Virus record (IMG/VR): IMGVR_UViG_3300035701_000368 | Coordinates: 1 to 20,213 of that record | Source: a virus | Strand: one strand, 5' to 3' | Length of the DNA: 20,213 nucleotides | In this document: positions 1 to 19,789 of the stretch, piece by piece | Position numbering within the stretch: the first letter of the stretch is position 1 | Layout of the letters: the number at the start of each line of letters is the position of its first letter | Notes under the pieces: model-generated | Seen by the model: the letters and a program-made list of their open reading frames with translations, nothing else | Told to the model about the DNA's origin: nothing | The model's database searches: none | Program-made: the position numbers and the translations under genes

Positions 1-528
1 GTTTTTGTTTATTATTTTGAGAACTATTTTTGTGGCGCTCAAGTAAGATTTATAAAAGAAAGAGTTACAGAGGATGGTGATGAATGGAAAATCACTACAC
101 TTCCTGGGACTCGGTTGGGATTATTGTTTGGACTATGGAATCAAGGTAAATTTTTTGCAAATATAAAGGCGGTAGTAGTTTGTGAAGGATACTTCAACGC
201 GCTCGCGCTTCAACAAGCGTTTAATATTAAGTATGGCGGTATTTCTAATAATCCCTGGAAGTTCATTTGCACTTCTGGCTCTGGCGTCTCCGACCATCAG
301 GCGGAAACTCTCAAAGTTCTTAAAGAACAAGGATACAAAGTCATCGGAGCCTTCGACCTTGACGAAGCAGGAATAGCTGGCATCAAGAAAATGACAGATA
401 ACGAATGTTTGACTCATTATGCTTTTACTGGTGAAACTAGTATCGATTGGAACGATATTTTAAAAAGAGAAGGACATGGAGCTCTTGCTAATTTATTTAT
501 TAAAAATATTGAAAAGTATGAAAAATAA
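1..528 (+). CDS. DNA primase, C-terminal part with Toprim domain (5' end outside the window)
   Basis: Partial gene. The frame is open from base 1 and ends with TAA at 526-528, giving 175 visible codons. The Toprim signature of primases is clear: a CEGYFNALAL block with the conserved acidic Glu at 184-186, then the GAFDLDEAG block with the two metal-binding aspartates at 355-357 and 361-363. Near the end is a DWNDIL block, common in phage and plasmid Toprim primases just after the catalytic core. The family makes RNA primers for DNA replication. Only about 55 codons follow the DLDEAG motif, so no helicase domain is attached at this end; zinc-binding and catalytic N-terminal parts would lie upstream. 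An internal TTG at 115 could serve as a start, but the homologous-looking frame before it argues against it. The next gene starts inside the last 11 bases. Confidence 0.85.
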   Translation, partial: VFVYYFENYFCGAQVRFIKERVTEDGDEWKITTLPGTRLGLLFGLWNQGKFFANIKAVVVCEGYFNALALQQAFNIKYGGISNNPWKFICTSGSGVSDHQAETLKVLKEQGYKVIGAFDLDEAGIAGIKKMTDNECLTHYAFTGETSIDWNDILKREGHGALANLFIKNIEKYEK

Positions 529-1138
529 CTTAACAAAACAACAAAAACTTCTTATTAGAAGGAATAAATATCAGGCCTCTATAAAGAAGTGTATTATCTG
601 TTGTATAGATTTTACAGTTAAAGCAAATGCTAAAAATGCTAAAATTTGCTTCTCCAGTAAGTGTAAAAAAGAAAGAGCAAAACTTAAAAAAGAGAAATTA
701 AAGAAATTAACATATAAAAATTGTGCAATATGCAGCGTTACTTTTATAGCTATAGGTAATACAACCACTTGCTCATCCAACTGTTCAAATATTAAGGTTT
801 TAAATAGAGTTAATAATCGCTACAATACAGATATTAACTTCAAACTAGCAGATATCTTAAGAAGTAGATTAGGACATGCCATTAAAAATGATCAAAAAAT
901 AGGTTCAGCTGTTAATGATCTTGGCTGCTCTATCCCTAAACTAAAAATTTACCTAGAATCCTTATTTCAGTTAGGGATGTCATGGGATAATTACGGCTTT
1001 AGAGGTTGGCATATTGATCATATAGAGCCATTATCAAAATTTAATTTATTAAATCGAGATGAATTGCTTATAGCTTGTCATTATACAAATCTTCAACCAC
1101 TATGGTGGCAAGATAATATTAAGAAAAGTAATAAATAG
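518..1138 (+). CDS. HNH homing endonuclease with two N-terminal zinc fingers
   Basis: Free-standing HNH nuclease of 206 aa. Two Cys4 fingers come first (C25, C28, C44, C49 and C69, C72, C85, C89), separated by a very Lys-rich helix. The C-terminal half has the DLGCS block, the GMSWDNYG block and the HNH core WHIDHIEPL (D167, H168), then TNLQPLW (N191) and a final DN (N200). This order is typical of phage HNH homing endonucleases, which cut DNA near their own gene and spread into genomes lacking it. I chose the ATG at 518, which overlaps the primase stop by 11 bases; an ATG at 476 would add a hydrophobic stretch that is simply the primase sequence in another frame. The SD for 518 is weak. The gene is visibly AT-richer than the primase and ends directly against the next ATG. 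The second HNH gene at 16693-17271 shares its C-terminal half but not its fingers. Confidence 0.88.
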   Translation: MKNNLTKQQKLLIRRNKYQASIKKCIICCIDFTVKANAKNAKICFSSKCKKERAKLKKEKLKKLTYKNCAICSVTFIAIGNTTTCSSNCSNIKVLNRVNNRYNTDINFKLADILRSRLGHAIKNDQKIGSAVNDLGCSIPKLKIYLESLFQLGMSWDNYGFRGWHIDHIEPLSKFNLLNRDELLIACHYTNLQPLWWQDNIKKSNK

Positions 1139-2689: not shown

Positions 2690-3054
2690 TATTCATAACT
2701 CCTAGATAATGTCAATCCTGAAAATGCGTCATAAGCTTTAATGTCTTCAATAGTTGTTAGAGCATCTACGGCAGTTTGTGCATCTTCAGGAAGGTCTAGA
2801 AGTGCTGTGCGATCAGTAAGGAGTGCTACTGTACTTGAACTATCCTTTAGAGCTATAAGATAGACCTTATCATGAACGACCATCATTTCGTCTCTTTGTG
2901 AGCGAACTTCATCCATCTTATTCTTACGAGCAAGAATAAGCTCTTCTGTATCTACTTCTTCAGATGGAACTTCTGTGTATCCATCAGGAATAAACCCATT
3001 AGGAGAAACGAGAACCATTACATTATCTTCTGAATCTTTAATTAATTTTCTCAT
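2689..3054 (-). CDS. Tail-fibre assembly chaperone-like protein, 121 aa
   Basis: Small acidic protein between the 747-aa fibre gene and the 148-aa chaperone-like gene, joined to both by TAATG stop-start overlaps. The N-terminal 30 residues look like a small beta domain (VMVLVSPNGFIPDGYTEVP). The rest contains ARKNKMDEVRSQRDEMM, a VYLIALKDSS stretch and TDRTALLDLPEDAQTAVDAL. The spacing of the Arg-rich helix and the R-x2-LLDLP turn recalls the LRxxRD...YRQALRDLP pattern of fibre assembly proteins, but with a KV-x-L insert. It may be a diverged partner of the 148-aa protein, or an attachment protein. GAGGAG lies 8 bases before the ATG, within the last codons of the fibre gene. Confidence 0.6.
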   Translation of the reverse strand: MRKLIKDSEDNVMVLVSPNGFIPDGYTEVPSEEVDTEELILARKNKMDEVRSQRDEMMVVHDKVYLIALKDSSSTVALLTDRTALLDLPEDAQTAVDALTTIEDIKAYDAFSGLTLSRSYE

Positions 3055-5297
3055 TATTCACTCTCCTCATCAGCAAGTTCACCAAAGAAAGCACACATAA
3101 AATCAATGTTTACGACACCTCCAGTGGTTGTGAAGGTACTATTCATTCTAACAGAGTTTGGTCTAACATTTAAGGCAGCCATTGCATAGAAATTTGTTGC
3201 TGCTGTGCGACCTGGACTAGACATAGCTACATAATTACTACTCTTAAATGGCTTCTCAAAAAATATATCATAATTTCCAGTACTTGCGTTAAGAACTGCA
3301 GATATATTATATGAAGAATATATAGTGTTGGCAACTCCATCAAACCATAACCAAGCCTTAGCCTTGCTCAAATCAACATTTCCAACATCTGTTTGTTTTG
3401 GAAATGAGACAGCAGGTTTAAGAGCTAGGGAACCACGTTTTGTGTTTGGATAGTGTATTGGTGTGATAATATCGAATGCTTGATTGGCAAAGTTACCGAC
3501 CCCTACAGATCGAGTTACAGTTACTGTATGGAAACCTAAATTTAGACCAGATATATAAATCCCATTAGCAGCCGTAGATGTAACATTAGTTACCAAGGTT
3601 CCTGTAGAGGCCGTCCATGAGGTTACTCCTGTTCCATAAAAACTAGAGTTAGTGGAAACGGCTCCAGTCCATCCTGCTCCAATTGTTGGTGTAGCATTGC
3701 TTGTGGAGAAATTTGTCGCTCCATCAATACTTACTTGCCAAGTTGCTGTGGTGCCTGGATTCACAAAGCGCCATTCTAATCCAGTTCCATAAAACACATA
3801 TTTAAAGGAATCTGTCGCTACGGAAGACTGAATGTGAGTACCATCTATACCATCTAATACACTCAGTGAAGCGGCCCAAGTTCCTATATATGTAAATTCT
3901 CTATTAGAAATTTTTCTTAAAACACCAGAGGCAATTTTATCTATTCCAGCAGTACCATTTGCATAATTCCCCATCAAATAATATTCGCCAATCTCTACTG
4001 CATCTGTTGGAATAGATGGTTTTTTAGGACCGTAAATAATGTAATCTTCCGTAAATATTGTATCTGCTGTAGTTTGAGAGAATCGAACAGTGTGAGTTCC
4101 ATAAGGAAGACCAGAAACAATTTTTACAATTTTATTACCATCAGTTCCAGTAGTTGAAATAGTTCCAATAGAAGTACCATCTACAAGAAATGTAGTGACC
4201 CTAGATACACCATCATTAGCTGAAACAAAAATATCTAACCCAGTCCCTACAAAAGTTAGAGAAAGAAACCCAGCCGTAGTAGCCCTAACTGATTGACTTG
4301 TTACTCCTGTAGTAATAGCATTAGAACCAACTAAAGTAGTTGTTCCATTATCTAGGGTGAAGGCTCTATTAGAAGCAGTGGTTAACGTACTAAAATCATC
4401 AGCTCTATTAGCTCCAAACTCTCTGAAGTTAATTCTACGAATTACTTCTTCATTGATATGGTCTGCTGAAGTTAAATTAGCCTGTGCTCCATTAGTCTGC
4501 TGAATAACTTTACCAATGCGACCATCTTTTAAGTAAGTAACTACTCGTCCACCACGACCATTAAGAACTGGAGAGCCATCAAAGCCTGAATTATAAGCGG
4601 TAGTTGTAGCTGTTCCAATGACTTCTTTTCTACCAGCACTTACAATTTCACCTTTAGGAATGTTGATTGAGGTTGATTCATTTAGGATTTCAAATCCATA
4701 AGTGTTTAAATAGAAGTTGAATCCAGCAAGACGAATTTTTACTGTATGAGTTCCTAAAGCTAGTCCTGAAGTTGCGCTTAAAATTTGATTAGGAGTATAA
4801 TTTCTAGAATTTAATACTGAACTACCTACAGGGTAAATATTAGCGCCTTCGGCTCCTCCATCAACAGATACTCTATAGTCAGTAACTATAGTTCCACCTA
4901 TAAGAGTCATTAAATTAAGTCCAGTGCCGTAAAAAGTTATTTCTATAAAATCATTTACAGTTTGAGTAATAGGTCTTGTTGAGCCTATTGAATCAGAAAA
5001 ATTACTCCAACTGCCTACAAACCTAACTCTATCATCTCCATTATCTAGTTTCCAAACTTGTTCTCCAGCAGCGCCTTTTTCATTTACAGCAAGTTTAATA
5101 GACTTAGTGTGAAGTCTCTCAATGCCCATTGCTGGACGAAGAGTTTTAGAAGGGTCTCTCATCTGTCTGGTGTTTCCAGATAAATCAGTAATAGTAGTAG
5201 ATGGAACAGCGATCATTGGAGCTGATAGGTATGCGTCTTGAGTGTCAGACTGTATCTGACCCAGAGTCGTTAAGTTTTGTTTAGTTTGATTAGCCAT
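3054..5297 (-). CDS. Tail fibre protein with three YGTG modules and a receptor-binding-type tip, 747 aa
   Basis: Long beta-rich virion protein. After a short N-terminal peptide (MANQTKQNLTTLG) come three modules, each running from an (F/I)xGTW or DDG(T)TTL strand through (F)xGTGL, then VDG or SIDG, and ending in LxxGxHTV: about residues 93-185, 312-398 and 470-590. This layout resembles small carbohydrate-binding beta-sandwich domains, though that reading is mine. Residues from about 647 to the end carry a different domain starting KAWLWFDG and SSYNISAV, with a YDIFFEKPFKSSNYVAM block; it matches a C-terminal domain common in phage tail fibres (AWVNFxG, SYNVSS, YxVNFxxPMxxxNYxV). The first 600 residues are paralogous to residues 1600-2200 of the 2298-aa protein. 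The SD is AGGA, 8 bases ahead of ATG. It is probably an adhesin at the tail tip. Confidence 0.85.
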   Translation of the reverse strand: MANQTKQNLTTLGQIQSDTQDAYLSAPMIAVPSTTITDLSGNTRQMRDPSKTLRPAMGIERLHTKSIKLAVNEKGAAGEQVWKLDNGDDRVRFVGSWSNFSDSIGSTRPITQTVNDFIEITFYGTGLNLMTLIGGTIVTDYRVSVDGGAEGANIYPVGSSVLNSRNYTPNQILSATSGLALGTHTVKIRLAGFNFYLNTYGFEILNESTSINIPKGEIVSAGRKEVIGTATTTAYNSGFDGSPVLNGRGGRVVTYLKDGRIGKVIQQTNGAQANLTSADHINEEVIRRINFREFGANRADDFSTLTTASNRAFTLDNGTTTLVGSNAITTGVTSQSVRATTAGFLSLTFVGTGLDIFVSANDGVSRVTTFLVDGTSIGTISTTGTDGNKIVKIVSGLPYGTHTVRFSQTTADTIFTEDYIIYGPKKPSIPTDAVEIGEYYLMGNYANGTAGIDKIASGVLRKISNREFTYIGTWAASLSVLDGIDGTHIQSSVATDSFKYVFYGTGLEWRFVNPGTTATWQVSIDGATNFSTSNATPTIGAGWTGAVSTNSSFYGTGVTSWTASTGTLVTNVTSTAANGIYISGLNLGFHTVTVTRSVGVGNFANQAFDIITPIHYPNTKRGSLALKPAVSFPKQTDVGNVDLSKAKAWLWFDGVANTIYSSYNISAVLNASTGNYDIFFEKPFKSSNYVAMSSPGRTAATNFYAMAALNVRPNSVRMNSTFTTTGGVVNIDFMCAFFGELADEESE
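3063..3068 (-). promoter_or_regulatory. Ribosome binding site inside the last codons of the 747-aa fibre gene
   Basis: GAGGAG encodes Glu-Glu in the DEESE C-terminus of the fibre and stands 8 bases before the TAATG stop-start overlap that begins the 121-aa gene. Confidence 0.75.
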
Positions 5298-5319
5298 AAT
5301 TTATCCTATCGTCTCCATA

Positions 5320-6402
5320 TTAAAATCTCGCATCTGCTGTGAAGTGAAATCTGATTGCTGCTCTTACGTTAACTGTTGACGTTCCTATAGTAGCTGCGTT
5401 TCTTCCTATTGCTTCGTATGTGGCTGCTCGATCAGTTCCACCGTCATTTATCTGATTAATTGTAGCTGTCAAATTACTATAAGCTACAATAGTGGGAATA
5501 GCTCGTTTAGATTGTCTAAAATAAGCTGTAAAATAAGATGGGTTATTGTTTGCACCAGCTCCGTGACTATATCCTACCATTCCAATATTTGTAACTGTTC
5601 CTGGAGTTACATCAGTGTCATAACTTTTTTCAAAATATCTCTGAGTCATTGATACTTCATCTTGAAAGTTTCTTCCAGCTCTATTTAAGCTATATCCACT
5701 AGCTGTTAAAGCAGTCCAATCTCCAGGCAAAACCATAACTCCAGCAATGCTAAAATCATGAGTGGTTCCAGTTAACCAAGTAGTGTCTTCTCCTATACCA
5801 CTAGAAAAGTTACCAGCTACCCAAGAACCTAGAGTAGAAGTTTGAAAAGTAGAACCTGTTACGATATCCCAACCAATAATTATTCCTGCTCCATTAGTTC
5901 TGTCTAAAGTTCCAGGACAAGAAGATAGAGGAGCTACTCTTAGAACCTTAAGCTCCCAAGTGTTTGCTGCTGCTATATTATATTGCTGAACGTAAGAGTG
6001 AGTTGAAGTTGCGTTTCTAATAGACATACTGCGATTAGAAGCTACGCTAGACTTTACCCAAAAAATAACTGAAAATTCTTTATTGATTAGACTTTGTATA
6101 TCGTAACCCTCTACATGATAGTGCATGATTTGTCTAGTGCCAAAAGCTAAGGCTCCAGCGGCTGTTTTAGATACTTGATTAGAAAAGGGAATATTTGTTC
6201 CAGCTGGAACAGAAGCTTGTCTAGAGTTCGTAATAGTCACGCCCGAAGAGATGTTGTTATATTGAAATAAAACAGAGCCATAAGCCGAAGTATTGTTGGC
6301 AATAGAACGAGAGGTGCTTTCAGGCCATATTTCGTGTCCACTATCAATAACGATGTTTGGTTCTAGCCGATTCAGCCTAGGACTTAAATTTTGCTTAGCC
6401 AT
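5320..6402 (-). CDS. Tail fibre or adhesin protein, 360 aa
   Basis: Beta-rich protein. It begins MAKQNLSPRLNRLEPNI, sharing the QNL peptide with its neighbours. Residues from about 20 to 240 look like a jelly-roll of the carbohydrate-binding type (FSVIFWVKSSVASNRS, TWELKVLRV, GSWVAGNF, FSIAGVMVLPGDW). Near residue 245 is the block FQDEVSMTQRYFEKSYD. The E-x3-(C/T)QRYxEKS pattern is frequent in C-terminal parts of phage tail fibres, where a small sandwich domain follows, as here (TAYFRQSKRAIPTIVAY, then VRAAIRFHFTADARF). I infer a receptor-binding or accessory fibre. GGAGAA stands 5 bases before the ATG, inside the last codons of the upstream GIY-YIG gene, and the two genes overlap by 8 bases. 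Confidence 0.82.
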   Translation of the reverse strand: MAKQNLSPRLNRLEPNIVIDSGHEIWPESTSRSIANNTSAYGSVLFQYNNISSGVTITNSRQASVPAGTNIPFSNQVSKTAAGALAFGTRQIMHYHVEGYDIQSLINKEFSVIFWVKSSVASNRSMSIRNATSTHSYVQQYNIAAANTWELKVLRVAPLSSCPGTLDRTNGAGIIIGWDIVTGSTFQTSTLGSWVAGNFSSGIGEDTTWLTGTTHDFSIAGVMVLPGDWTALTASGYSLNRAGRNFQDEVSMTQRYFEKSYDTDVTPGTVTNIGMVGYSHGAGANNNPSYFTAYFRQSKRAIPTIVAYSNLTATINQINDGGTDRAATYEAIGRNAATIGTSTVNVRAAIRFHFTADARF

Positions 6403-7087
6403 TGATATTCTCCAAATATTTAAAGGTATATCCCTTTATAGTCTTATAATTCTTTTTGCCCTTTAAATGTTTCATTAAATTAGATCTATCTAAATTCATT
6501 TCTTTAGCGGCTTCTCTGGTTGTTCTAAAAACCTTATTAGTCTCATTACAAATTAAAGATTTAATCTTAAATTCTTGATGTTTAGAAATTCTTTCCTTTT
6601 CTTCTTGAGATAATTTAATGCCTTTTCTATGAGCTGAATTTCCTTTATGAGGCACTCTGAGAGATTTTTTATGCTCTTCTGTAAGTTTTTTACCAGTTAA
6701 CGCTTTTCTTATTTTATCAGAAGTTTCTTTAGAGACGACTCTTCCTGGATTGCCTTCGCCTCCTGTCGTTAGATTTGTCAGTTTAGCGCCTTCAGATTTA
6801 TATTTAGCAATAAATTCAATTTCCTTCTTAGCCAATTCTTCTTTGGAGCATTCTGTCAATACAGTAATAATTGGAGTTCCACCTTTGTCCATAACTGAAT
6901 TAATCCAGTTATACAGATAGGTTTTTTTAGCCCTGCTTCCAAGCTTGAGGTGTTGTCTAGGTCTATATATACCACAGCTACTCATACCTATATATCTAAG
7001 CTCGTCGGTAAATGGGTCAATAAGACCGTAAATCAAGCATCGACCTTGTTGTCCTCTTGGTTTTCTAGGCGTAAGGTTTTGTTTCAT
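6395..7087 (-). CDS. GIY-YIG homing endonuclease with NUMOD-type DNA-binding tail
   Basis: Protein of 230 aa. The nuclease domain has LIYGLIDPFTDELRYIG (Y20, Y32, G34), an Arg-rich RPRQHL helix (R42, R44, H46), the metal-binding Glu candidate in KKEIEFI (E89) and a TNLTTGGEG block. Then come NUMOD3-like basic repeats (SDKIRKALTGKK, EEHKKSLR, HKGNSAHRKG) and a C-terminal helix-turn-helix-like NUMOD1 region (VFRTTREAAKEMNLDRSNL). This is the domain order of phage GIY-YIG homing enzymes such as I-TevI and the Seg proteins. I start it at the ATG at 7087, with AGGTG 6 bases upstream; a GTG at 7096 is too close to any SD. The first eight residues, MKQNLTPR, match the start of neighbouring fibre proteins, not nucleases. 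It begins one base after the upstream stop and overlaps the next gene by 8 bases. Confidence 0.92.
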   Translation of the reverse strand: MKQNLTPRKPRGQQGRCLIYGLIDPFTDELRYIGMSSCGIYRPRQHLKLGSRAKKTYLYNWINSVMDKGGTPIITVLTECSKEELAKKEIEFIAKYKSEGAKLTNLTTGGEGNPGRVVSKETSDKIRKALTGKKLTEEHKKSLRVPHKGNSAHRKGIKLSQEEKERISKHQEFKIKSLICNETNKVFRTTREAAKEMNLDRSNLMKHLKGKKNYKTIKGYTFKYLENING

Positions 7088-7088
7088 A

Positions 7089-7550
7089 TTATGCACCTAT
7101 CCTAGAGACCATAAAATAATTTGCTGTTGCTGATCCGCTGGCTGTTACTGCTGATTGAGATGATATAGCAATAGTGTCTCCTGCATTAAAAATCCACTCC
7201 ACAGTTCCTCCAGATATCTGACTACTAGACCCAGCTCCAGAAGCAGGAAAATCTACAACCCTAACTCCATTTTTTAAAACAGTAAAGATAGCATTAGTAG
7301 CTACTCCAATAGCTGCTGAGATTAAATATGTTCCATCAGTCGGGCAAGTAAAATTTCCAGTTATAGTGCTATAAGCACTGTTTGTATCTTTTATTACATT
7401 TGTAAATTTATAAGTTGTTGATGGAGTAGATGCTGTATTTGAGGCTGTATTAGCAATCATAATTATAGGAGATTCTAAAGCAGCAATTCTGGCAATAAGA
7501 GAGTCTATAGATTCATTAGTTAAATTTTGTTGTCGTCTTGATTTTGCCAT
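7089..7550 (-). CDS. Small C1q-like virion protein, 153 aa
   Basis: The protein has three parts: a QNL peptide (MAKSRRQQNLTNE), a short heptad-like helix (SIDSLIARIAALES) and one beta domain. The beta domain shows the C1q/TNF-like order: YKFTNVIKDTNSAY, then FTCPTDGTYLISAAIGV, FTVLKNGVRVVD, VEWIFNAGDTIAISSQS and a final YFMVSRIGA. The FxCPxxGxYxIS strand, the LKNG strand and the LxAGDxIxI strand are its hallmarks. Such domains form trimers, and the helix before it would be a trimerising coiled coil, so this looks like a stand-alone trimeric knob that binds the virion by its N-terminus. It lies one base from the upstream stop (TAATATG) with AGGAT as SD. Confidence 0.8.
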   Translation of the reverse strand: MAKSRRQQNLTNESIDSLIARIAALESPIIMIANTASNTASTPSTTYKFTNVIKDTNSAYSTITGNFTCPTDGTYLISAAIGVATNAIFTVLKNGVRVVDFPASGAGSSSQISGGTVEWIFNAGDTIAISSQSAVTASGSATANYFMVSRIGA

Positions 7551-8914: not shown

Positions 8915-9760
8915 TTATCTATCCTCTATCGGAGTATTAGATGACCCTAAAATCGGTACTAATGCATCAACACCATATCCCATTTGTGCAGCACCTGTAA
9001 TGGCTCCAAAACCTGCACTAATTGTACCTAAGCTTGCATTATTAACAACTGTATCAGAACCAGACAATAATACATTAGCTGAATCATAAACAGTTACTCC
9101 ACCTGTAAATGCTGCACCAGTTGTTGATGCATTATAACTTCCAACATTATTGCTTCTAGGATTAGCTGCATTTGCTCCAATAACAGTAGTATCAGGGACT
9201 AATTTTGTTACATCAATACTAATATTTGCTGGCATTGGGAATAAATACATACCAGTTCCAGCAGTAGCAGTTCCTGTAACGCTTTTAACCCACGCCCATC
9301 TAATACGAGCAGAATTACCTTCTATTTTATACCAAAGCTGATTAACATCGATTGTTGCAGTTCCATAGGTTGGAGCAGTAGTTGTTGCTCCAATCTGGAA
9401 AGTTCCTGAAAGTATCCAATCACTACTTGACCCTTTAATATTTGAAAAACCTCCAAAAACTAAAGAACCATTTGCTCTTAAACTTCCAACCAATTTCCAT
9501 CTTGAATATCCAACTGGACCAACTGAGTTTTCATTTAAACTGATAACTAAAGAAACTACTCCAGCAGTTTGAACAGCAAAAACCTGATAACGAGTGTTAG
9601 CAGATATAGTTGGAAGAGCTACTGAGAGTTGATTAGTTACTTTAAACTGCTGTCCACCAATGGTTAGATAAGCTGGACTAGAAACAGAAGCAGCCATTAT
9701 GATATTGCCAGCAGAGTGAGAGAGTGCGCCTATTTTGTCGTCGCGTAGTTTTTGGCCCAT
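8915..9760 (-). CDS. Tail fibre protein, 281 aa
   Basis: Short fibre-like protein. The N-terminal 110 residues (MGQKLRDDKIGALSHSAGNI, then AYLTIGGQQFKVTNQLSVAL, TRYQVFAVQTAGVVSLVISL and PVGYSRWKLVGSLRAN) match the pattern of phage fibre domains that carry per-site measurements of the GYSRWKLVGS kind. The C-terminal 150 residues hold a NQLWYKIEGNSARIRWAW start, a TATAGTGMYLFPMP loop, ISIDVTKLVP and VTVYDSANVLLSG. This is the same fold pattern as the end of the 453-aa protein. Its start overlaps the stop of the giant fibre gene (TAATG), with GAGGAG 8 bases upstream. Role inferred: a short side fibre or tip subunit working with the giant fibre. Confidence 0.8.
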   Translation of the reverse strand: MGQKLRDDKIGALSHSAGNIIMAASVSSPAYLTIGGQQFKVTNQLSVALPTISANTRYQVFAVQTAGVVSLVISLNENSVGPVGYSRWKLVGSLRANGSLVFGGFSNIKGSSSDWILSGTFQIGATTTAPTYGTATIDVNQLWYKIEGNSARIRWAWVKSVTGTATAGTGMYLFPMPANISIDVTKLVPDTTVIGANAANPRSNNVGSYNASTTGAAFTGGVTVYDSANVLLSGSDTVVNNASLGTISAGFGAITGAAQMGYGVDALVPILGSSNTPIEDR

Positions 9761-12700
9761 TATTCTAACTCCTCTACCGATAAAATTCTAGCTAATTGAA
9801 AGGCAGTCATCGTTGCTGAACCAGTTTTCCAATATACATCTATTTTATGAACTCCAGCCGCGACTTGAACAATTAGAAAATTAGATTGAGCCATAGCTTG
9901 TCCTACCGCCGCTTCTGAGCTAAGAATCTCTACTCCAGATGCTATTCCATTTATATAAAAAGTAGTTATTACAGATACTGAGGTGGTACTTTGTAATACG
10001 GATGCAGTATAAAACAATTTTAATCTAGTTTTAGACTTTACAGAAATAGTTACACTCATGTCGGGCATAGGGACATATCCTGTGCTGGTAGAAGTAGGAC
10101 CGGAACTAACTGCAACTGCTTGTGCAGTGTTTTTATCTTCAAAAACATCCTTCTTACTAAACTTTCTAAGATCAGCTATACCTTGAGAACCAATAGGTAA
10201 AGTATTCTGCAATACAAATGGTCCATTGTCTTTAGGAGAATGGATAGGAACTATATCATCAATAGCATTTAAATTGAATATTCCAGTTCCAGAGACGTAC
10301 GCAAACTTAATAGTGTGCCATCCAAGAGGAAGTCCAGAAATAACTAAACCGTTACTTGCTAAAGAGGTTACGCTAAATACTACAGTTCCAGTGGTTCCAG
10401 TAAATGACGTAATATTGGCACCATAGAAAGCAGTAGTCGCTCCAGCAGCAGTTAAGTTAGTAGTTCCTGCTGGATTTGCGTTATCTGTTAAAGTAAATTG
10501 CCACGTAACCGCCACACCATTTGTACTGCATCTTAAATCTATTCCAGTTCCATAAAACGTATGTTGTACGTTATTAGCTGCTGCTGTAGCCGTAAGTTGA
10601 ATACCCATTTCTGTAATATTTAGAGGAGCAGACCAAGCACCAACATAAACATTTTCTCTAGCTGGATGTTTTCTTAATGTTCCAGTAGAGACAGTTAAAT
10701 TGTCTCTTACAGTATTAGCTACAAAAGTAGCCATTATATTATATGCGCCAATCTCTACTGCATTAGTTGGAAGAGTAGGAGTTTTTGGTTGATAGATTAT
10801 AAACTTACCAACAAATAATCCACCTGCTCCACCAGCAGCACAAGCTACTTTTACTGCATGATTGCCGTATGGAAGGCCAGATACGATTTTAATTGTGTTT
10901 CCTGTGCCTGAACCTTGAATGACAGTAGCTGTTGTTATTGCTGTGCCATCTACTGTGACTGTATATGTAGCCACTCCTGAAATACCACGAACATTGGTTA
11001 GATCTAAGCCTGTGCCTACAAAACTTAATGTAAAGAAGTCTCCTGCGCCTGTAGCTAAACCTAATCCTTCTCCATAGGCAGCTTGAGTATTCAAAATATG
11101 ATTTTGACAAATTAAAGTAGTTGTTCCATCATCTAAAGTAAAAGCTCTAGATCCACCAATAGATGCTAATGTGCTAAAATCATCAAGTGCTGTTCTTCCA
11201 GCTCCGAACTCTCTAGGATATATAATTCTAGCAATTTCTTCATTAGCGTGATTTGCTGAAGTCATATTAAGTTGAGTAGTATCTGTTGGAGTAACTGCTT
11301 TAGCTACTGAGCCGTCAGACTTTTGATAAATCAACACTCGTCCACCGCGAGTACCAAGAGTACCAGTTTCAAAGCTTGAATTATAAGAAGTAGTTTCTAA
11401 AATAGTATGTGTGCGGCGCTTACCTTTGTAAAGTTGAGCACCTGGAGGTAACTGAATAAGGCCTGAAGCTTGTTCGTTAAGGATTTCAAAGCCGTAAACA
11501 GTTAACGCAATAGCATTAGCATTACGTATTTTTACTGTATGTAAACCTAAAGTTTGATTAGAAACAACAGGAAGAACTACATTCATTGAATAATTTCTAT
11601 TATTAAGAACAGCAGAACCATTTATAGCAAAGTTGGCTCCTTCAGAGCCACCATCAACCGTAGCTCTATTATCTCTAGCTGTTGCGTCATTTTGAGATAA
11701 TAAATTAAGTCCTGTTCCATAAAAAGTAATTTCTACATAATCATTCACTGATTGAGTAAATACGTTAGGACCTACTGTTCCGGCCCCTTGACCCCAAGTT
11801 CCTACAAACCTAATTTGATTAAACTTATCATTTACTGCACTCCAAACAGGTTCACCATTTGCTCCAACTTCGTCTTGAAGCTGGAAGAGTTGCTGAGTCA
11901 TCATTCGATCAACAGCAAATCTAGGCTTCAAATCTTGACTTAAGTCAGGTATCATAGCTCGATTTTGAATTGTAGTAAATGGTACAACCTTTGGCAAAAT
12001 CATAGAGTCAGAAATGCTAGCTAACTCATCACCAATATCAATCAAGTTAGATTGAATTTCAGAAATAGCTGCTGCATTAGAGTCAGAATTATCAATGACA
12101 GAGCCTTTAGTCTGTCTAAAGATAAGAACTATGTCTTCACCTGGGAAATCAAAAGTATCTGGAGCAAACTTAACTGTTTGACCTTCAATGCGAGCTACGC
12201 CTTCTTCAATAGCGTATGTTTGACCGCGATAAGGGTCAAGAATCTCAAGAAGCTCAGGGTCTGGAGTAAACGTCAATAAGAAGTCAGTAGTGTTTGAGTC
12301 GCCTGTGAAGTAGAACTTTTGAAAACGTTTTTCACCATTAGCTGAAGTTACACCATTATTAAGTCCATAATATACGCCGTAACCTTCTGCAAAAGAAGTG
12401 CCTACGCTAGAGATTACTTTAACTCGTAAATCAAGAGCGCGACCATATACTATATTTGCTTTAGTAGATACTGTGTTGCCACTTGTAGTCCATAAAGAGC
12501 CATCAAAAGTAGCTCCTGTAGTAGTGGCTGCACTGCTTCTCCAAGTAAGGTCTAGAGTACCAGCTTTATAAGCTGCGTCAGTAACTAAAACTATATGATA
12601 AGTTCCAGCTACTAAAGTTATATCTGGAATATTAAAAGTAACGGTAATATTACCAGTACCGCCTAAAGAGGCTGTAGAAATAATTTTAGCATCTGACTCA

Positions 12701-15700
12701 GAAAGAATATCTGCTACCGCTGTACTTGGAACTCCAGCATTATTTTTAACTAAACGAAGGGTTACATAACCAACCCCTGCTCCACCATAATTCATATTGA
12801 GATCTAAAGTTTTAACTACAGAAGTTTTAGTAAGAACTAAAGGTGAACTTAGTTGTTGGCGCGTGGTAGCTGTTAAAGATTGTCCTGCTCCAGGAGTGCC
12901 AGCTGTTTGTAAGGCTTGATTGCTTGGTTCTTCAGAGAATACATGATATCCTCTATAAGCATTTAAACCAGCTTGACTCATAGTAACTGTTTGATAGTTT
13001 AAACCACCATCACGAGATACTTGATAAATAGCAGCTGGGTCAACAAAACCAGCTAAATATGTAAAATATAATTCTGTTTCTGTTAAATCTACGCCTTCAT
13101 CTAAAAAGGATTGATCTAAATTTTCTATTGAAATTAAAGTTTGTGCTGCTGCTGTCCATGAAAAAGCGCGTTTAGCTGGACTATAAGCACCAGTAGAAGC
13201 TGCGTTATAGGTGTCTGGAACTAACAACACTTTTGTAGCTTTATCTCTACGGAAAATATTTTGTTCCATTAATTCAAAAGAATTTACTGCAAAACGGTCT
13301 CTTAAAAGAGTGTCTAATAAACTAGCATCTCCAGTACCACTTCCAGAACCTGAACCTACACCAAGTCTGCGAGTTTGAACTATAGTAATTACTCCAGCAA
13401 TGTTTTGTACTTGAATTGCTCCAAGCTTAATGTCACCTGTAATAACTGGGATTGGAGCACTTGCTTGAACAGCGTTAGCTGAATCAGCAAAATCAATCTG
13501 TACTTGAGCTTCTTGTCGATTATCAACTAAAACGTTGCTTGGTATAAGAGATACGCCATACCAATAGTATTGACCTACTGGAATAGTGAAAGGAGTAAAA
13601 TTTACTCCTAAAGCTGTAGCGTCATCTTCTTTAAGAACTGCGCCTGAAGTGAAGTTTATTACTGCGCCTGTGAAAGATAAAATAAATTCGCCAACAACTT
13701 GGCTAAGAATATCTTGATCTAATTGAGTAAAGTCTGCACCTAAAATGCGCGCTTTATTTACTGCAGTTTCATGTTTGTGAAGTTTAAGTTGAGTAAGTCT
13801 TCGATTGATATCTGCTAAAGCCCCATCAAGTTCTAAAAATTCACCATCTTTTAATAAGATTGTGCCATTGCCTACAAGTACATCATTACCCAATCTACGG
13901 GCAATAATAACTGTATTTAGAGTGGACACTAATGTACTAATCGTGCCGATACTTACAGTTAAATTAGTTAAAGCTCCTGCTGATCTATTAACTTCAACAT
14001 AGGCTATATCACCATCACTTGCAAGTACAACAGAACCCGTTGGAATTGTATTCCTGGCTTCTGTGATACTAGGTATTTGAACATTTGCTGTAGCAGTCCA
14101 AGATAAGGTATTCGTTAAAAGATCCCAACCCCAAACACCGCCACGAACAAGTTTTAAATTTTCATTTTGTTGAATAACTAAACTTAATAAACCAGTAGTA
14201 GGTGTAATGCCACTGGCAGCATAAAAACCATCCCATAACCATACATCAGATGATGCAAGACGTACTGCCAAGACTAATGTATTTTCACTTAATGGTACGT
14301 CATCGATATTTGCAACAGATACTGCTGCTAAATTAGCTATTGAAAATGATGCATTGCGATCTACTGTTATATAAGCAGCTTGATTAACTAATAAAGATAA
14401 TGTTCCGGTTAAACCAACTGAACCATTATTAGCAGAACTAGGTAGAGCAATATCTAACAGAGGGACACCGCTTGGTGGAGTAGCAGTAAATGTAATATCT
14501 CTACTAGCTCCATTTAAAGTATTTACAACTGCATTATATCCAGATGGCATTAATTTAATAGTTTTATCTTGTGCTTTATCTGCCATCATAGCAGTAAGTT
14601 TAGCTGCCCTAACTGTTAAGTTATCAGCTGTGAGTGCGTTGTAATTCTGCATCCCATCAAGGGTATTATAATTAGGTGGAATTACATATGTTGGCGTAGT
14701 ATCTGAAAGAGATTCCATACCCACATATATTCTAATGTTTTCTGCAGGGGTTCCGCCAATTGAAGCACTTCCGCCTTGAACTACCTGAACAACAGAACCT
14801 TCAGTGCGAAGGATTACTTTAGCAAGTGTAGCTGTACCTGCTGTTTCCGTAGCATTTGCCGCACTTACAGGTATTGTGAATGTTGTAGCGTCTCTTACGC
14901 TAATTAAATAACTAGCATTATAATTTGTAGTGCCTGCAATTATGATTTTTTCATTAGATGCAAAACCGTGATTTGCAGATTCAAGTTGTAAACCATATGC
15001 TGTAGATCTTGTTGTTGAAGTAACAGTGGCGTATCTACCAATTCTTGCTGCTTCATCGGCGAAAGGACCACCAGGAATATTTATATAAAATATTGTAGTA
15101 CTTTCTACTTCAACTGTATATGTACCATCAAAATTAGTAGATCCTGAAATTGTTACTCTATCACCATCTACTAAACCATGAACTGCGCCAGAAGTACACT
15201 TAGCTGTTGCACCATCGTGCTCACTGATAGCTAATGTGAGAGTTGTTGTTGTGATATTAGATACGCTCTCTATCGTATCACTTCTCATTGCCATCCAGTG
15301 GAAGTTTCCACCGGCAGCTTGAATTGCTAACTGATCTCTATCGGATACAACAACATCGGCAGCAGCATAAACACCTTTATCATAGCGACCTTTTTCAGTA
15401 GTCGTAGTTCCTAGGTAGTTTCCGCTTAATCTAATAGATTTAGCATTTGCAGCAGTTGTAGTTACGCCACCAAGATTAATAGTGTCATAGAACTCTTCAA
15501 CTCGTAGATATTTATCATTACTGTCGTTAATCTTCTTGACATAATCGCCTTTTGCCAAATTGACAAAAAGTCCAACTGCTCCACCAACTGTATTTACATA
15601 TGGTTGAGCATTGGTCCAATCTACAACATCATCTGTAGCATTTAAAATGCCATCACGAATCATTGGTATATACATTACTTGCTCATCAAGTAGTGTTTTA

Positions 15701-16656
15701 TTGCCTTCACGCACTATATATGTACGTGGATCAGAAACAACTTTGATATTAATATCTTCAGTCCAAGTTACTACACCAGCTGTAACTGAACTATGCGACC
15801 ACTTACCTTTAGATCTAAATGCTGTTGCATTAGAGTCAATAAAGCTAGATATTAAGCTAAATGTGGATGCATCTTCATACCAGTATGAGGTGCCACCAAG
15901 TTCGCGCAGCTTCATCATCACTGCATCCATCCACTCTTTTAGTGAAAGGATATTCTTATCTGCACCTTGGAATGGATTTGTTCCACCAGCTAACATCTGT
16001 GTTGGCGGTTCTGTTCTTGTAAAGCCTGCACCTGGTAAAGATCGCCATGCATATCCATTAAAAGGATCTGGATTAATTCCACCAGAACCTAAACGGAACA
16101 TCATGTCTCGTGCATCTTCGATAGCTGTGATTGTTACAGGACCAACAGTTACTAGAGCTATTGGAATAGTATTAGCAGGAAATGATCCAACAGATACGTT
16201 TACATCGACTTTTAATACTGATTCAGTATTAACATCTTGTGTAAACTCACCACCATTACCACCATCCTTATCTGGATCCCAGAAGGCTCGTGTATCAACA
16301 GAAGAATTAAAAGTACTGAATGTCAAGTAAACATAGTTTACTGCATTTTTACGAAGTTCAGGAACTAAGGGAGCAGCTTGTACATGACCCTCTGCTAGAC
16401 CGTGATAGAAACCACCGGAACTAGATTCTGGATAGAATACCATAGAGTCAGCAACTCTAATAGAGCAACTTTGTGTACCTATAGCATTAAGTGGATCAAT
16501 GACGTCGAAACCTTTTAAAATATAAGGTTTAGAATCGCCAACAAGGCCCTTTAAAAAATATTTCCAATCACCTGCAGCATAACTATCTACAGATAATAAG
16601 TCCGGTAAATCTAGACGCTCTGATGAACTTATGAGCACTCTACCTAAAACAGCCAT
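9760..16656 (-). CDS. Giant tail fibre/baseplate connector protein, 2298 aa
   Basis: The largest protein in the window, mosaic in layout. Residues 1-200 (SSERLDLPDLLSVDSYAAGD) look like a baseplate-anchoring head. Two FCCH-like beta repeats (HGLVDGDRVTISG near 495; NHGFASNEKIIIAG near 560) follow. Two similar units lie near 760-810 and 883-931 (AYITVDRNA...LVLAVRL and AYVEVNRSA...VIIARRL). A likely helix (INRRLTQLKLHKHE, near 960) and a Gly-Ser linker (GVGSGSGSGTGD, near 1100) precede a second half that begins LLDTLLRDRFAVNSFELMEQ. Residues 1600-2200 are paralogous to the 747-aa fibre (three YGTG modules); the last 115 form a C1q-like knob different from that protein's tip. AGGAGA lies 5 bases before the ATG. 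Probably a long fibre joining baseplate to tip adhesins. Function is inferred from layout and neighbours. Confidence 0.85.
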   Translation of the reverse strand: MAVLGRVLISSSERLDLPDLLSVDSYAAGDWKYFLKGLVGDSKPYILKGFDVIDPLNAIGTQSCSIRVADSMVFYPESSSGGFYHGLAEGHVQAAPLVPELRKNAVNYVYLTFSTFNSSVDTRAFWDPDKDGGNGGEFTQDVNTESVLKVDVNVSVGSFPANTIPIALVTVGPVTITAIEDARDMMFRLGSGGINPDPFNGYAWRSLPGAGFTRTEPPTQMLAGGTNPFQGADKNILSLKEWMDAVMMKLRELGGTSYWYEDASTFSLISSFIDSNATAFRSKGKWSHSSVTAGVVTWTEDINIKVVSDPRTYIVREGNKTLLDEQVMYIPMIRDGILNATDDVVDWTNAQPYVNTVGGAVGLFVNLAKGDYVKKINDSNDKYLRVEEFYDTINLGGVTTTAANAKSIRLSGNYLGTTTTEKGRYDKGVYAAADVVVSDRDQLAIQAAGGNFHWMAMRSDTIESVSNITTTTLTLAISEHDGATAKCTSGAVHGLVDGDRVTISGSTNFDGTYTVEVESTTIFYINIPGGPFADEAARIGRYATVTSTTRSTAYGLQLESANHGFASNEKIIIAGTTNYNASYLISVRDATTFTIPVSAANATETAGTATLAKVILRTEGSVVQVVQGGSASIGGTPAENIRIYVGMESLSDTTPTYVIPPNYNTLDGMQNYNALTADNLTVRAAKLTAMMADKAQDKTIKLMPSGYNAVVNTLNGASRDITFTATPPSGVPLLDIALPSSANNGSVGLTGTLSLLVNQAAYITVDRNASFSIANLAAVSVANIDDVPLSENTLVLAVRLASSDVWLWDGFYAASGITPTTGLLSLVIQQNENLKLVRGGVWGWDLLTNTLSWTATANVQIPSITEARNTIPTGSVVLASDGDIAYVEVNRSAGALTNLTVSIGTISTLVSTLNTVIIARRLGNDVLVGNGTILLKDGEFLELDGALADINRRLTQLKLHKHETAVNKARILGADFTQLDQDILSQVVGEFILSFTGAVINFTSGAVLKEDDATALGVNFTPFTIPVGQYYWYGVSLIPSNVLVDNRQEAQVQIDFADSANAVQASAPIPVITGDIKLGAIQVQNIAGVITIVQTRRLGVGSGSGSGTGDASLLDTLLRDRFAVNSFELMEQNIFRRDKATKVLLVPDTYNAASTGAYSPAKRAFSWTAAAQTLISIENLDQSFLDEGVDLTETELYFTYLAGFVDPAAIYQVSRDGGLNYQTVTMSQAGLNAYRGYHVFSEEPSNQALQTAGTPGAGQSLTATTRQQLSSPLVLTKTSVVKTLDLNMNYGGAGVGYVTLRLVKNNAGVPSTAVADILSESDAKIISTASLGGTGNITVTFNIPDITLVAGTYHIVLVTDAAYKAGTLDLTWRSSAATTTGATFDGSLWTTSGNTVSTKANIVYGRALDLRVKVISSVGTSFAEGYGVYYGLNNGVTSANGEKRFQKFYFTGDSNTTDFLLTFTPDPELLEILDPYRGQTYAIEEGVARIEGQTVKFAPDTFDFPGEDIVLIFRQTKGSVIDNSDSNAAAISEIQSNLIDIGDELASISDSMILPKVVPFTTIQNRAMIPDLSQDLKPRFAVDRMMTQQLFQLQDEVGANGEPVWSAVNDKFNQIRFVGTWGQGAGTVGPNVFTQSVNDYVEITFYGTGLNLLSQNDATARDNRATVDGGSEGANFAINGSAVLNNRNYSMNVVLPVVSNQTLGLHTVKIRNANAIALTVYGFEILNEQASGLIQLPPGAQLYKGKRRTHTILETTSYNSSFETGTLGTRGGRVLIYQKSDGSVAKAVTPTDTTQLNMTSANHANEEIARIIYPREFGAGRTALDDFSTLASIGGSRAFTLDDGTTTLICQNHILNTQAAYGEGLGLATGAGDFFTLSFVGTGLDLTNVRGISGVATYTVTVDGTAITTATVIQGSGTGNTIKIVSGLPYGNHAVKVACAAGGAGGLFVGKFIIYQPKTPTLPTNAVEIGAYNIMATFVANTVRDNLTVSTGTLRKHPARENVYVGAWSAPLNITEMGIQLTATAAANNVQHTFYGTGIDLRCSTNGVAVTWQFTLTDNANPAGTTNLTAAGATTAFYGANITSFTGTTGTVVFSVTSLASNGLVISGLPLGWHTIKFAYVSGTGIFNLNAIDDIVPIHSPKDNGPFVLQNTLPIGSQGIADLRKFSKKDVFEDKNTAQAVAVSSGPTSTSTGYVPMPDMSVTISVKSKTRLKLFYTASVLQSTTSVSVITTFYINGIASGVEILSSEAAVGQAMAQSNFLIVQVAAGVHKIDVYWKTGSATMTAFQLARILSVEELE
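9769..9774 (-). promoter_or_regulatory. Ribosome binding site inside the last codons of the giant fibre gene
   Basis: GAGGAG encodes the Glu-Glu pair of the C-terminal VEELE of the 2298-aa protein and lies 8 bases before the ATG of the 281-aa gene. The gene for the 121-aa protein has the same arrangement at 3063-3068, also with 8 bases spacing, at the end of the 747-aa fibre gene. Confidence 0.75.
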
Positions 16657-16692: not shown

Positions 16693-17271
16693 TTAATTAG
16701 CTCTATCACTTTTTGATATGTTATCTTTAGCCCACAATGGCTGCAAATTCATATAATGACAAGCTTTCTTAACTTGCTGTAAATCACAAAGATCAAAGGC
16801 ATTTAAAGGGGTAATATGGTCTATATGCCACCCCTTGCAACCATAGTTCTCCCAAGTCATACCTGGTTGAAATAATGATTCTAAGTGAGATTTAACACCA
16901 TTAATTGAACAGCCGAGATCTCTTACAGCAGAACCAGTCCTATAGTTACCTTTTATTGCTCTATTTAATCTATTTCTTAAATTAACAGATATTCTTCGTT
17001 TAAGAGCTTTTATTGGATCCACTTTATATGGATTTTTAATAAAATAATTTTTAGTGTTTTTTCTTTGTTTTTCTATAAAATTATCCGTATTGCAATAACA
17101 TTTCTTACATAGTTTGCTTTTCTTTTTATAATGACTAAGTTTTATATAGCCCCTAAAACTGTTACATTTTTCACAATAACATGCATATCGAATTTCTTTG
17201 TTAATTTCTCCAAGGTATCTGGGTGATTTTCTTTTATTAATGTGAGTTATAAAATCATTAAGCAATATCAT
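16693..17271 (-). CDS. HNH homing endonuclease, second copy, 192 aa
   Basis: Free-standing HNH nuclease between two virion genes. The N-terminus has one zinc-finger-like unit (C33, C36, C55, C58, with C31 and C60 beside), then a Lys-rich linker and a basic helix (ISVNLRNRLNRAIKGNYR). The catalytic half has the DLGCS block, GMTWENYG, then WHIDHITPL (D151, H152), MNLQPLW (N175) and DN (N184). This half is closely similar to that of the HNH protein encoded at 518-1138. I start at the ATG at 17271, with GGAG 9 bases upstream; it overlaps the upstream baseplate gene by 14 bases. An ATG at 17310 would only re-read the end of that gene. The gene is clearly AT-rich: 26 G+C among the 120 bases 16981-17100, against 22 of 60 in a fibre-gene sample (10021-10080). 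Confidence 0.9.
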   Translation of the reverse strand: MILLNDFITHINKRKSPRYLGEINKEIRYACYCEKCNSFRGYIKLSHYKKKSKLCKKCYCNTDNFIEKQRKNTKNYFIKNPYKVDPIKALKRRISVNLRNRLNRAIKGNYRTGSAVRDLGCSINGVKSHLESLFQPGMTWENYGCKGWHIDHITPLNAFDLCDLQQVKKACHYMNLQPLWAKDNISKSDRAN

Positions 17272-19789
17272 CTGGATCGACTCCACTTTGATAAACATCC
17301 AATGTTGCATACAATTGTTCTGGATACCTAACTAAGAAATTTACGAATATACCAGCACTTTTAACAGACTTAATGAGTTCTTGTAATATAAATCTAGCTT
17401 CTGATGGATCAGTGATATAAGCAGGATACTCAGAAGCACGACCACTCATCTGATGAGGCCCCTTTCTATTGATAGCTACTATAGGTGAACCAGCAGGATG
17501 ACTATGTTTGAACGTATATGAGGGATCTATGGCAATAGTATTATTTGTAGGCTTATATAAATACCTAACTGGCCCCTCTTGATTATCTCTTCCATAGTCA
17601 AATATTATGAATCCACCATCTGGCGATATATCATTTGCTGTTGTATTTAGCAACCTAATGATTTTTCCAGCCTGTATTGCATCATTCACTTCAGCTGTAT
17701 TAGATGATAAAACAAAAGCAGCAGCTTGATCCCAGATATAAGAACCTAGTGTGCGACTTACATCAGAAACCACTGCATCAACAGCAAAGATCTTTGAGGT
17801 GCTATTTGCAAGTCCAATGCGCTCTACACGCGAGTTGCCTAAAATAGTTGCTGCACCATTTCCACCAACTTGATTGTAAGTAAAATTTGAACCGCTGGCA
17901 CTAGTAATAGTATAGGATCCATTAAAGAAACCTGGCCCACCACTTGTTCCTGAAATTATTATAGATTCACCTACAACATAGCCATGTGGAGATACTGTAA
18001 CACCAGAAACAACATTGGCTGTTCTAGAAAGAGAAGACAATGTAAACTCATTTAAACTTGCTAATGCTGGGATATCGGGCGTGATCCCTGTTAACTGATT
18101 ACCTAAAAACTTTACGGATTGCGTTGTAGCTGTAGCGGTTGCTGGATGAGAAAGATTTACAACTGGACCAGCTATACTGACAATTCTTGCATACGCAGGA
18201 ACACCTGTCATTGTCACTTGTTGACCTATAGCTAAACCTACAACAGAAGCAAGATTTATAATTTGAGCTACACCATCAACTATGTCGCCTGTTGTAGTTA
18301 AGGCTACTCTACTTGCATATTCATATCTATCTATTTTAGCGTTTAATCTAGTGTTAGTTTTTGTAGACACTACTACATTTTCAGATATAGTGAGCATTCT
18401 TGTTAATCTTTCATCTACACGTTCTATATAAAATGTCCCAGATTCTGGAAATTGAAAGGCATCGACCACTGTCAATGATGTATTACTATCTCTATTAGAC
18501 ATTTGACTAAATGCACCATTTACGTGATCTGATCCCTTAAGTGATCTTTTAACTACTGGAGGAGATGTAGGCATTTCAACTGTAATTTCACCTAGCGATG
18601 TTTCCCATGTCATGGCTCTTCTAGCATTCAAATATGCTACATATTTATTAGGTGTAAGGAATTTAACTTGATCGGCACTTGTTTGTATGATATTAATGCC
18701 ACCGGTTAAATTAACCACTTGTGCACTAGGGATTGTGTCAGCACCAGTGGTTAATACTTTATTATTAGGATTCGCTATATTCCATGCAGACACTACTGTA
18801 GAAATTAATGCTAAACCATTAAAAACTAATGATATGCTGTTGCCAATTGTTCCACCTTTTTCTGCAGTGAATGTATTGGCACCCAATGTTGCTGTAGCTT
18901 TCGCAGTACCCGTTCCAAATAGATTTGTAAAAGTTAAACTATTATTAACAAGGTCAACATTAGATATAGAGAATGAACCTTCATTTCCAGCAAGATCAAT
19001 GATAATTAGATCACCTTCTTGTAGAACATTGACCCCAGGATCTGCTCCTGAAGCATATTGAAATGTCACCTGATCGCCAACTTTAGTTACACCCCATTGA
19101 GTATTTGCACCATTGCCAGCAAGATCAATGAAACCGTTTAATCTAAGGGCTATATTTGCTCTTCCACCCAATACCCTTAGAGAACCCTTAGAGCCAACAG
19201 TATTAGTAAAAATCTTAATATAAGTATTCTTAGTGATACTGTCGTAATATGGTGTTGCATAGCTATATTTAGATTGACGATTTATAGCGGCCACAACTTC
19301 ATCGGCTGAAGCAGCATTTATGTTTGTGAAGTCATCTGTCTTAAAAACAATACGTTCACTATTTTGCTCATCAATGATCATCTCTAATTCCCAGCCGTCA
19401 CTCAAATCAAATGACTCAAAATTCTGTGAAGTAAGAAATGCCGTCGTTGATTCTTTAAAGAAGAATACATCTAGCAATTGATCTATAATTAATTTAACTT
19501 GTTTCGGTTGATAAGAGAGAACTGGGATGTACTGTCTAAAAGATGGATCATCCATGCCAACTAGACGTGGACGAGAAATCTTACTATTTGCTGCTAATCT
19601 GTCAAGATAAGGTCTAGAGGCAGTCTTAATAAAGAACTGCTTACGTACTTCAGCAACTAAATCTGCCGTACCTTGATCTGCTTCACCTAATGCCTCTACA
19701 ATAGCTTTCCAATTGGTATTGGTTTTACTATTTAAGTGCTTAGGAAGCAAGTCGTGTAGTTGATCAACTTTTCCCTTATTGTTTGCCAT
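17258..19789 (-). CDS. Baseplate/tail structural protein, 843 aa
   Basis: Large virion protein directly after the baseplate J-type gene. The first 110 residues (HDLLPKHLNSKTNTNWKAIV, then RKQFFIKTASRPYLDRLA, then DDPSFRQYIPVLSYQPK) resemble the tail protein I/baseplate wedge pattern: a bundle with an F-x2-TAxxxYLDxLA motif followed by a (D/E)xxFRxxI motif. The middle is a mosaic of beta repeats: an ADEVVAAINRQ unit near 163, a GGTIGNSISLVFNG unit near 315 and an FCCH-like unit (HGYVVGESIIISGTSGG) near 603. The last 50 residues (EARFILQELIKSVKSAGIFV, then NFLVRYPEQLYATLDVY) resemble the end of baseplate J-like proteins. I infer a wedge or fibre-docking protein. The start is 4 bases after the J gene stop with only a weak SD, so coupling is likely. 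Confidence 0.75.
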   Translation of the reverse strand: MANNKGKVDQLHDLLPKHLNSKTNTNWKAIVEALGEADQGTADLVAEVRKQFFIKTASRPYLDRLAANSKISRPRLVGMDDPSFRQYIPVLSYQPKQVKLIIDQLLDVFFFKESTTAFLTSQNFESFDLSDGWELEMIIDEQNSERIVFKTDDFTNINAASADEVVAAINRQSKYSYATPYYDSITKNTYIKIFTNTVGSKGSLRVLGGRANIALRLNGFIDLAGNGANTQWGVTKVGDQVTFQYASGADPGVNVLQEGDLIIIDLAGNEGSFSISNVDLVNNSLTFTNLFGTGTAKATATLGANTFTAEKGGTIGNSISLVFNGLALISTVVSAWNIANPNNKVLTTGADTIPSAQVVNLTGGINIIQTSADQVKFLTPNKYVAYLNARRAMTWETSLGEITVEMPTSPPVVKRSLKGSDHVNGAFSQMSNRDSNTSLTVVDAFQFPESGTFYIERVDERLTRMLTISENVVVSTKTNTRLNAKIDRYEYASRVALTTTGDIVDGVAQIINLASVVGLAIGQQVTMTGVPAYARIVSIAGPVVNLSHPATATATTQSVKFLGNQLTGITPDIPALASLNEFTLSSLSRTANVVSGVTVSPHGYVVGESIIISGTSGGPGFFNGSYTITSASGSNFTYNQVGGNGAATILGNSRVERIGLANSTSKIFAVDAVVSDVSRTLGSYIWDQAAAFVLSSNTAEVNDAIQAGKIIRLLNTTANDISPDGGFIIFDYGRDNQEGPVRYLYKPTNNTIAIDPSYTFKHSHPAGSPIVAINRKGPHQMSGRASEYPAYITDPSEARFILQELIKSVKSAGIFVNFLVRYPEQLYATLDVYQSGVDPDDIA
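18987..19002. repeat. First copy of a 16-base direct repeat
   Basis: The 16 bases ccagcaagatcaatga occur here and again at 19116-19131, 129 bases apart, both inside the 843-aa gene in the same frame. Both encode IDLAGN on the minus strand. A small in-frame duplication or a shared turn motif would explain it. Confidence 0.6.
19116..19131. repeat. Second copy of a 16-base direct repeat
   Basis: Exact copy of the 16 bases at 18987-19002, encoding IDLAGN in the 843-aa protein. The flanks differ at once (NGANTQWG here, NEGSFSIS in the other copy). Confidence 0.6.

Follow-up and report, generated by a model that had tools for sequence, protein, structure and literature searches.

In phages, free-standing homing endonuclease genes commonly have neither promoters nor good ribosome-binding sites, and they overlap their neighbours (PMC2988022). 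According to the same source, the T4 proteins SegA-SegG (GIY-YIG) and the HNH Mob proteins are encoded by free-standing genes located between conserved phage genes, with no promoters of their own; in several of them a good ribosome-binding site is missing and the gene overlaps the one upstream, some include control elements of the downstream gene, and cleavage by the known free-standing enzymes is often hundreds of bases away from the place where their genes are inserted. Here we describe a GIY-YIG nuclease gene placed in a similar way in the virus record IMGVR_UViG_3300035701_000368 of IMG/VR (positions 1 to 20,213, referred to as the window, i.e. the whole stretch of 20,213 bases analyzed), which contains a tail-fibre and baseplate cluster on the minus strand. 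The nuclease most probably took the start codon and the first codons of the tail-fibre gene directly downstream, with the fibre being read from a second start. Unlike this case, the use of the start and coding codons of a target as the N-terminus of the nuclease is not described for Seg and Mob in the passages of PMC2988022 consulted.

In fungal mitochondria, mobile open reading frames (ORFs) found in atp6, atp9, cox2 and nad3 of Allomyces and Glomus bring along a second copy of the target's 3' end (PMC3630166). There an endonuclease ORF is inserted with a partial duplicate of the target that keeps the gene whole, as may also have happened in the window, and the copies differ strongly at synonymous sites, as they do in the window. 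However, the fungal ORFs duplicate the 3' end and the host gene is fused upstream, whereas in the window the nuclease has a copy of the fibre start on each side, the duplicated end is the 5' one, and the nuclease takes the start. By analogy, the window case can be seen as a 5' mirror image of the fungal mobile ORFs, in a phage. Another comparable insertion is T4 mobA, between genes 39 and 60, where the downstream coding part also needs its own start after the insertion; on the other hand, the topoisomerase gene is there split in two, with a link to ribosome bypassing, and no duplicated start is reported in the passages of PMC3014915 consulted. Start capture or duplicated starts by phage homing endonucleases were not found described in the open literature, most subscription journals being outside the search.

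The nuclease gene (230 aa; 6395-7087, minus strand), recognized by profile matches, a structure model and a residue alignment, lies between a C1q-like fibre/collar gene of 153 aa (7089-7550, minus strand; ORF list and sequence, with orthologues in loci L111, L113, L115/L077 and L155) and the 360-aa tail-fibre gene (5320-6402, minus strand; ORF list and orthologues), apparently invaded at its 5' end. The start at 7087 (MKQNLTPRKPRG) encodes the peptide MKQNLTPR, and its ATG is 1 base past the stop of the 153-aa gene (7091-7089); a GTG located 9 bases 5' of this ATG would give 233 aa instead of 230. Within the end of the 153-aa gene there is a likely ribosome-binding site, AGGATAGG (7096-7103, minus strand), matched in position by AGGA-type sites of L111 and L113; it likely serves the nuclease now and served the fibre formerly. 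The ATG and the following seven codons (7064-7087, minus strand) are the putative captured fibre start, as indicated by the comparison with relatives and by alignment scores.

At the opposite edge, the nuclease stop and the fibre start share an 8-base overlap evident from the ORFs and the sequence, ATGGCTAA (6395-6402, minus strand). A GGAG in the last codons of the nuclease (6410-6413, minus strand), 7 bases 5' of the fibre ATG, is the likely ribosome-binding site of the 360-aa fibre, both the site and the ATG being within the nuclease 3' end. The fibre starts at 6402 with MAKQNLSPRLNR, encoding MAKQNLSPR (6376-6402, minus strand), which on sequence comparison looks like a second, re-made copy of the start with mostly different codons (MAKQNLSPRLNRLE, or MAKQNLSPRLNRLEPN for the longer start at 6402). 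The nuclease is spelled AAA CAA AAC CTT ACG CCT AGA and the fibre AAG CAA AAT TTA AGT CCT AGG, the two starts agreeing at 12 of 18 bases. Since these copies differ in most codons and have no long exact word in common, an assembly error joining repeats, and with it an artefactual junction, is unlikely.

We obtained relatives by a scan with the baseplate-fibre N-terminus (32 relatives), followed by scans with a fibre alignment. A direct search with the 747-aa fibre of the cluster and GenBank blastn gave no close relatives, although these were found by the baseplate-fibre N-terminus search, and only a distant Variovorax match was returned by the genome contig scan with the fibre alignment. The junction is free of the nuclease in five distinct relatives, four of them with the same gene order, where the fibre orthologue comes directly after the orthologue of the 153-aa gene. 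In the closest relative (L111/L114), the fibre is 62% identical, with start MKQNLSPRINRLESN and the ATG 2 bases past the upstream stop. The other three are L155 (58% identical, start MASNQQLTPRLNRLEPN), L113 (47%, start MGNKKQLTPRLNRLEPN, ATG 1 base past the upstream stop) and L077/L115, where a 365-aa fibre orthologue (40%, start MGSQLLTPRINRLEPN) comes immediately after the 153-aa gene's counterpart of 154 aa. The fifth, L112, has a different upstream gene and a fibre 54% identical starting with MSNLTPRINRFESN. Of the five, L077/L115 came from the baseplate-fibre N-terminus scan and the others from the scans with the fibre alignment. In short form, the fibre starts of the four relatives with the same order are MKQNLSPRINRLE (closest relative), MASNQQLTPRLNRLE, MGNKKQLTPRLNRLE and MGSQLLTPRINRLE. 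The nuclease peptide MKQNLTPR and the fibre start MKQNLSPR of the closest relative are identical in 7 of 8 residues. While the fibre N-terminus is well conserved as LTPR[IL]NR.E.N, the nuclease keeps the LTPR half and lacks NRLEPN. As the nuclease ATG is 1 base past the upstream stop, and the fibre ATG of L113 and L111 is 1 and 2 bases past it, the nuclease occupies the old place of the fibre start and has its first eight residues.

The initial annotation had preferred the idea that the nuclease took the start and first codons of a fibre gene, and had recommended looking for nuclease-free relatives at this junction. The five relatives found, together with the nuclease homologues devoid of the peptide, support that claim well, with corrections in the source gene and in the second start. 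The DNA comparison made earlier was with the 747-aa fibre, whose start agrees with that of the nuclease at 15 of 18 bases (7084-7067 against 5282-5265), a count that we reproduced; however, the shared position and the PR residues point to the 360-aa fibre directly downstream as the source, in spite of its 12 of 18.

We suggest that this is a free-standing homing endonuclease with a start captured from the 360-aa fibre, which now runs from a second copy, and we give this reading a probability of about 0.86. Its basis, namely the position, the common start, the nuclease-free relatives and the lack of the peptide in other nucleases, is directly observed. The GIY-YIG gene would have inserted near codon 8-9 of the fibre gene, using the original ribosome-binding site, the start codon and the next seven codons (MKQNLTPR) as its own 5' end, and would be expressed from there. 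The fibre would have survived through MAKQNLSPR, a second start that has a ribosome-binding site to itself, lies where the insert ends on its 3' side and shares 8 bases with the nuclease stop; this start would have been either brought in with the insert or made by local duplication. The exact empty site would have the fibre directly after the 153-aa gene, with start MKQNLTPRLNRLEPN. Scans for promoters and terminators gave results no better than shuffled sequences.

Some observations weigh against this reading: the shared stretch has just 8 residues (24 bases), the nuclease start is closer at the DNA level to the 747-aa fibre than to its proposed source, no second contig spans the nuclease junction, and the QNL codons of the 153-aa and 747-aa genes are not explained by it, which means that another process acts on these starts too. 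The same end state could also have been reached by another route, in which the 360-aa fibre was duplicated in tandem and all but the start of the first copy gave way to the nuclease. Fibre genes are often repeated, as in four places of phage S-H34, and the two starts differ in their codons as paralogues do, but no junction relative has two tandem copies of a fibre of the 360-aa type, and no fibre remnant is recognizable past residue 8 of the nuclease. We regard this route as possible, though rather unlikely.

The capture reading also depends on the resemblance not being accidental, since short polar starts such as MAKQNLSP are seen in unrelated proteins. As background for BLOSUM62 scoring of starts we used the 1291 distinct gene starts of the loci analyzed (mean 9.8, s.d. 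4.0). Between the nuclease start and that of the next gene the score is 34, a value reached only by the 360-aa fibre and the nuclease itself, with the L111 orthologue at 33. Among 67 distinct GIY-type nuclease ORFs, no other begins with QNL[ST]PR, and most begin a few residues ahead of the GIY motif. Related GIY-YIG nucleases outside fibre clusters with a KQNLTPR start, the case that would have spoken against capture, were looked for and not found. With the exact position of the fibre start, the near identity to the L111 fibre, the top score and the lack of the peptide in other nucleases, chance convergence is hardly credible.

The enzyme itself has the features of its class. PHROG and NCBIfam profiles match it to homing endonucleases and, below the curated cut-off, to group I intron endonucleases (TIGR01453); the Pfam GIY-YIG model is below threshold. 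A GIY-YIG domain covers approximately residues 17-98, followed by NUMOD3-like repeats, which are weak (E 0.2), and a C-terminal NUMOD DNA-binding module (PF22083, residues 185-223, above cut-off). The IYG and YIG motifs are present, and Y32, G34, R42, H46, E89 and N105 are invariant among seven relatives. The conserved Tyr, Arg, Glu and Asn of the catalytic domain and the modular NUMOD-type C-terminal part are those of GIY-YIG homing endonucleases, and the location between conserved phage genes, with presence or absence among relatives, is that of a Seg-type free-standing gene. In Foldseek comparisons of an AlphaFold2 (AF2) model against the PDB, the best matches include the I-TevI catalytic domain (1mk0/1ln0), a weak match with probability of approximately 1.00 but E 0.03-0.11, and a TM-score normalized to the target of 0.69-0.77. 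The protein is presumably active as a homing endonuclease. In the model, residues 1-7 have pLDDT below 50, being predicted as disordered, and there is no strand before residue 17, which places MKQNLTPR outside the predicted GIY-YIG fold. The peptide probably has no role in the enzyme, being a side effect of the takeover of a translation start that works.

The TIGR01453 match could suggest that the nuclease resides in a group I intron, or in another spliced or bypassed element of the fibre gene, with the two starts being exon pieces, and joining the flanks at the shared CCTAG does yield an in-frame fibre start. Nevertheless, Rfam gave no intron match, even with relaxed thresholds, the nuclease ORF takes up the whole insert with no space for a ribozyme, and the fibre has its own ribosome-binding site and ATG. 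We consider such an origin close to negligible.

The initial annotation listed four successive genes with a similar short start peptide, and the coordinates and peptides of all four were verified: MANQTKQNLTT at 5297 in the 747-aa fibre (3054-5297, minus strand), MAKQNLSPR at 6402, MKQNLTPR at 7087, and MAKSRRQQNLTN at 7550 in the 153-aa gene. The word CAAAAYYTWA occurs exactly 4 times on the minus strand of the window (5279, 6393, 7081 and 7529), always in frame and at these starts, although it was picked after the four starts had been seen and K, L and T of the 747-aa start agree with the L113 orthologue, which makes the true odds softer than these counts suggest. In other gene starts, QNL[TS] was found within the first 14 residues in only 1 of 1144, the L111 orthologue of the 360-aa fibre. 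On the other hand, the orthologues of the 153-aa gene begin with MAKSRRQSNN, MAGARRQSND, MANKRRPSND and MAKARRQSNN, and those of the 747-aa gene with MALKTKSSIANVGQ, MANTKSSIANIGEI and MAKQKAKLTALGEI, none of them with QNL. The KQNLT start of the 747-aa fibre is thus not kept in its orthologues. Therefore, a tag common to all fibres was not inherited, and the sequences support a narrower statement, in which an inherited start is common only to the nuclease and the 360-aa fibre.

The same data bear on the second proposal made for the peptide, a virion attachment tag common to the fibres through which the nuclease would be carried on the particle. Such a function could account for QNL[TS] being in frame at three fibre starts and the nuclease of this genome, while very rare at other starts, and for the well conserved fibre N-terminus. 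However, in the closest relative QNL is found in one fibre only, it is missing from the 153-aa and 747-aa orthologues of all relatives, so the N-terminal tag is not conserved across fibres, and of the conserved N-terminus the nuclease has no more than the first half. Its start position already accounts for the peptide with no need of a virion function, and the same peptide begins proteins of unrelated phages: a viral contig scan for MAKQNL[ST]P starts returned terminases and small basic proteins only, and no fibre clusters. We consider the tag very improbable.

In the 153-aa and 747-aa genes, the QNL codons seem to stem from a recent event confined to this lineage, possibly short gene conversion between neighboring starts, perhaps after nuclease breaks, or selection. 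A more speculative scenario, which we consider doubtful, is that the fibre 5' end of nuclease-free phages is what the nuclease cuts, and that the nuclease moves together with a copy of this end whose changed spelling protects it from cutting; each conversion would swap the fibre start while the fibre stays working, and breaks at the fibre starts might in addition have carried the QNL codons into neighboring fibre genes in this lineage. If true, nature would have produced an equivalent of a homing drive with recoded rescue.

A second candidate for start capture is found in L014 (IMGVR_UViG_3300010885_000726), where another GIY-YIG nuclease (start MSNRWPGGLLVADCPP) overlaps the downstream fibre gene (start MPRYPGGLIRKTP) by 25 bases. 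As in the window, its first residues (MSNRWPGGLL) seem to copy those of the next fibre (MPRYPGGLI); unlike the window, the phage and the fibre family are unrelated, the overlap is larger, and no empty site was found, a further point against the general reading. This fibre family occurs in phage DSL-LC04 (start MSLRYPGGLITKSP), which does not count as an empty site, given that the genes upstream there are not clearly homologous, and no fibre is present at that place in MW202545, related to the gene that precedes the L014 nuclease. With L014 counted, start capture is seen in approximately 2 of the 67 GIY-type nucleases surveyed, a small sample, and it is rare but probably not unique. None was detected in five GenBank GIY-YIG loci compared by score, nor by eye in a sixth with its ORFs listed.

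Other nuclease genes are present in the window and its relatives. An HNH-type nuclease (476-1138, plus strand; likely start at 518) lies between a primase and a 125-aa gene. In L071 and L212, the 125-aa gene comes directly after the primase, with an ATGAAA overlapping the primase stop, and the HNH gene of the window starts with ATGAAA at the same overlap; a third start capture is a weak possibility here. Another HNH-like nuclease (16693-17310, minus strand), between the 843-aa and 2298-aa baseplate genes, is also present in L048, and relatives including L070 and L077 lack it at this junction. L048 (10001-12322 against 17258-19789 of the window) is a near-identical contig of the same population in which the 843-aa baseplate gene is represented by a 773-aa allele. 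In L071 (958-1587), a different GIY-YIG nuclease lies between two baseplate genes and overlaps both. By eye, the C-terminal part of the 2298-aa baseplate fibre (9760-16656) is similar to the 747-aa fibre, FYGTGLNL being one of the stretches in common, and a search with the latter hits long fibre genes of relatives, which suggests module exchange within the cluster.

For annotation, an N-terminal peptide of this kind is probably borrowed rather than functional. The case also provides a search rule, a nuclease start resembling the start of the next gene, which gave one more candidate and is applicable to all phage genomes. A homing nuclease entering a coding region must spare the gene and be translated, and both requirements are satisfied, with no intron or intein involved, if it takes the target start and a second start follows. 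This is a route by which structural genes that are hard to lose, such as tail fibres, can still be invaded.

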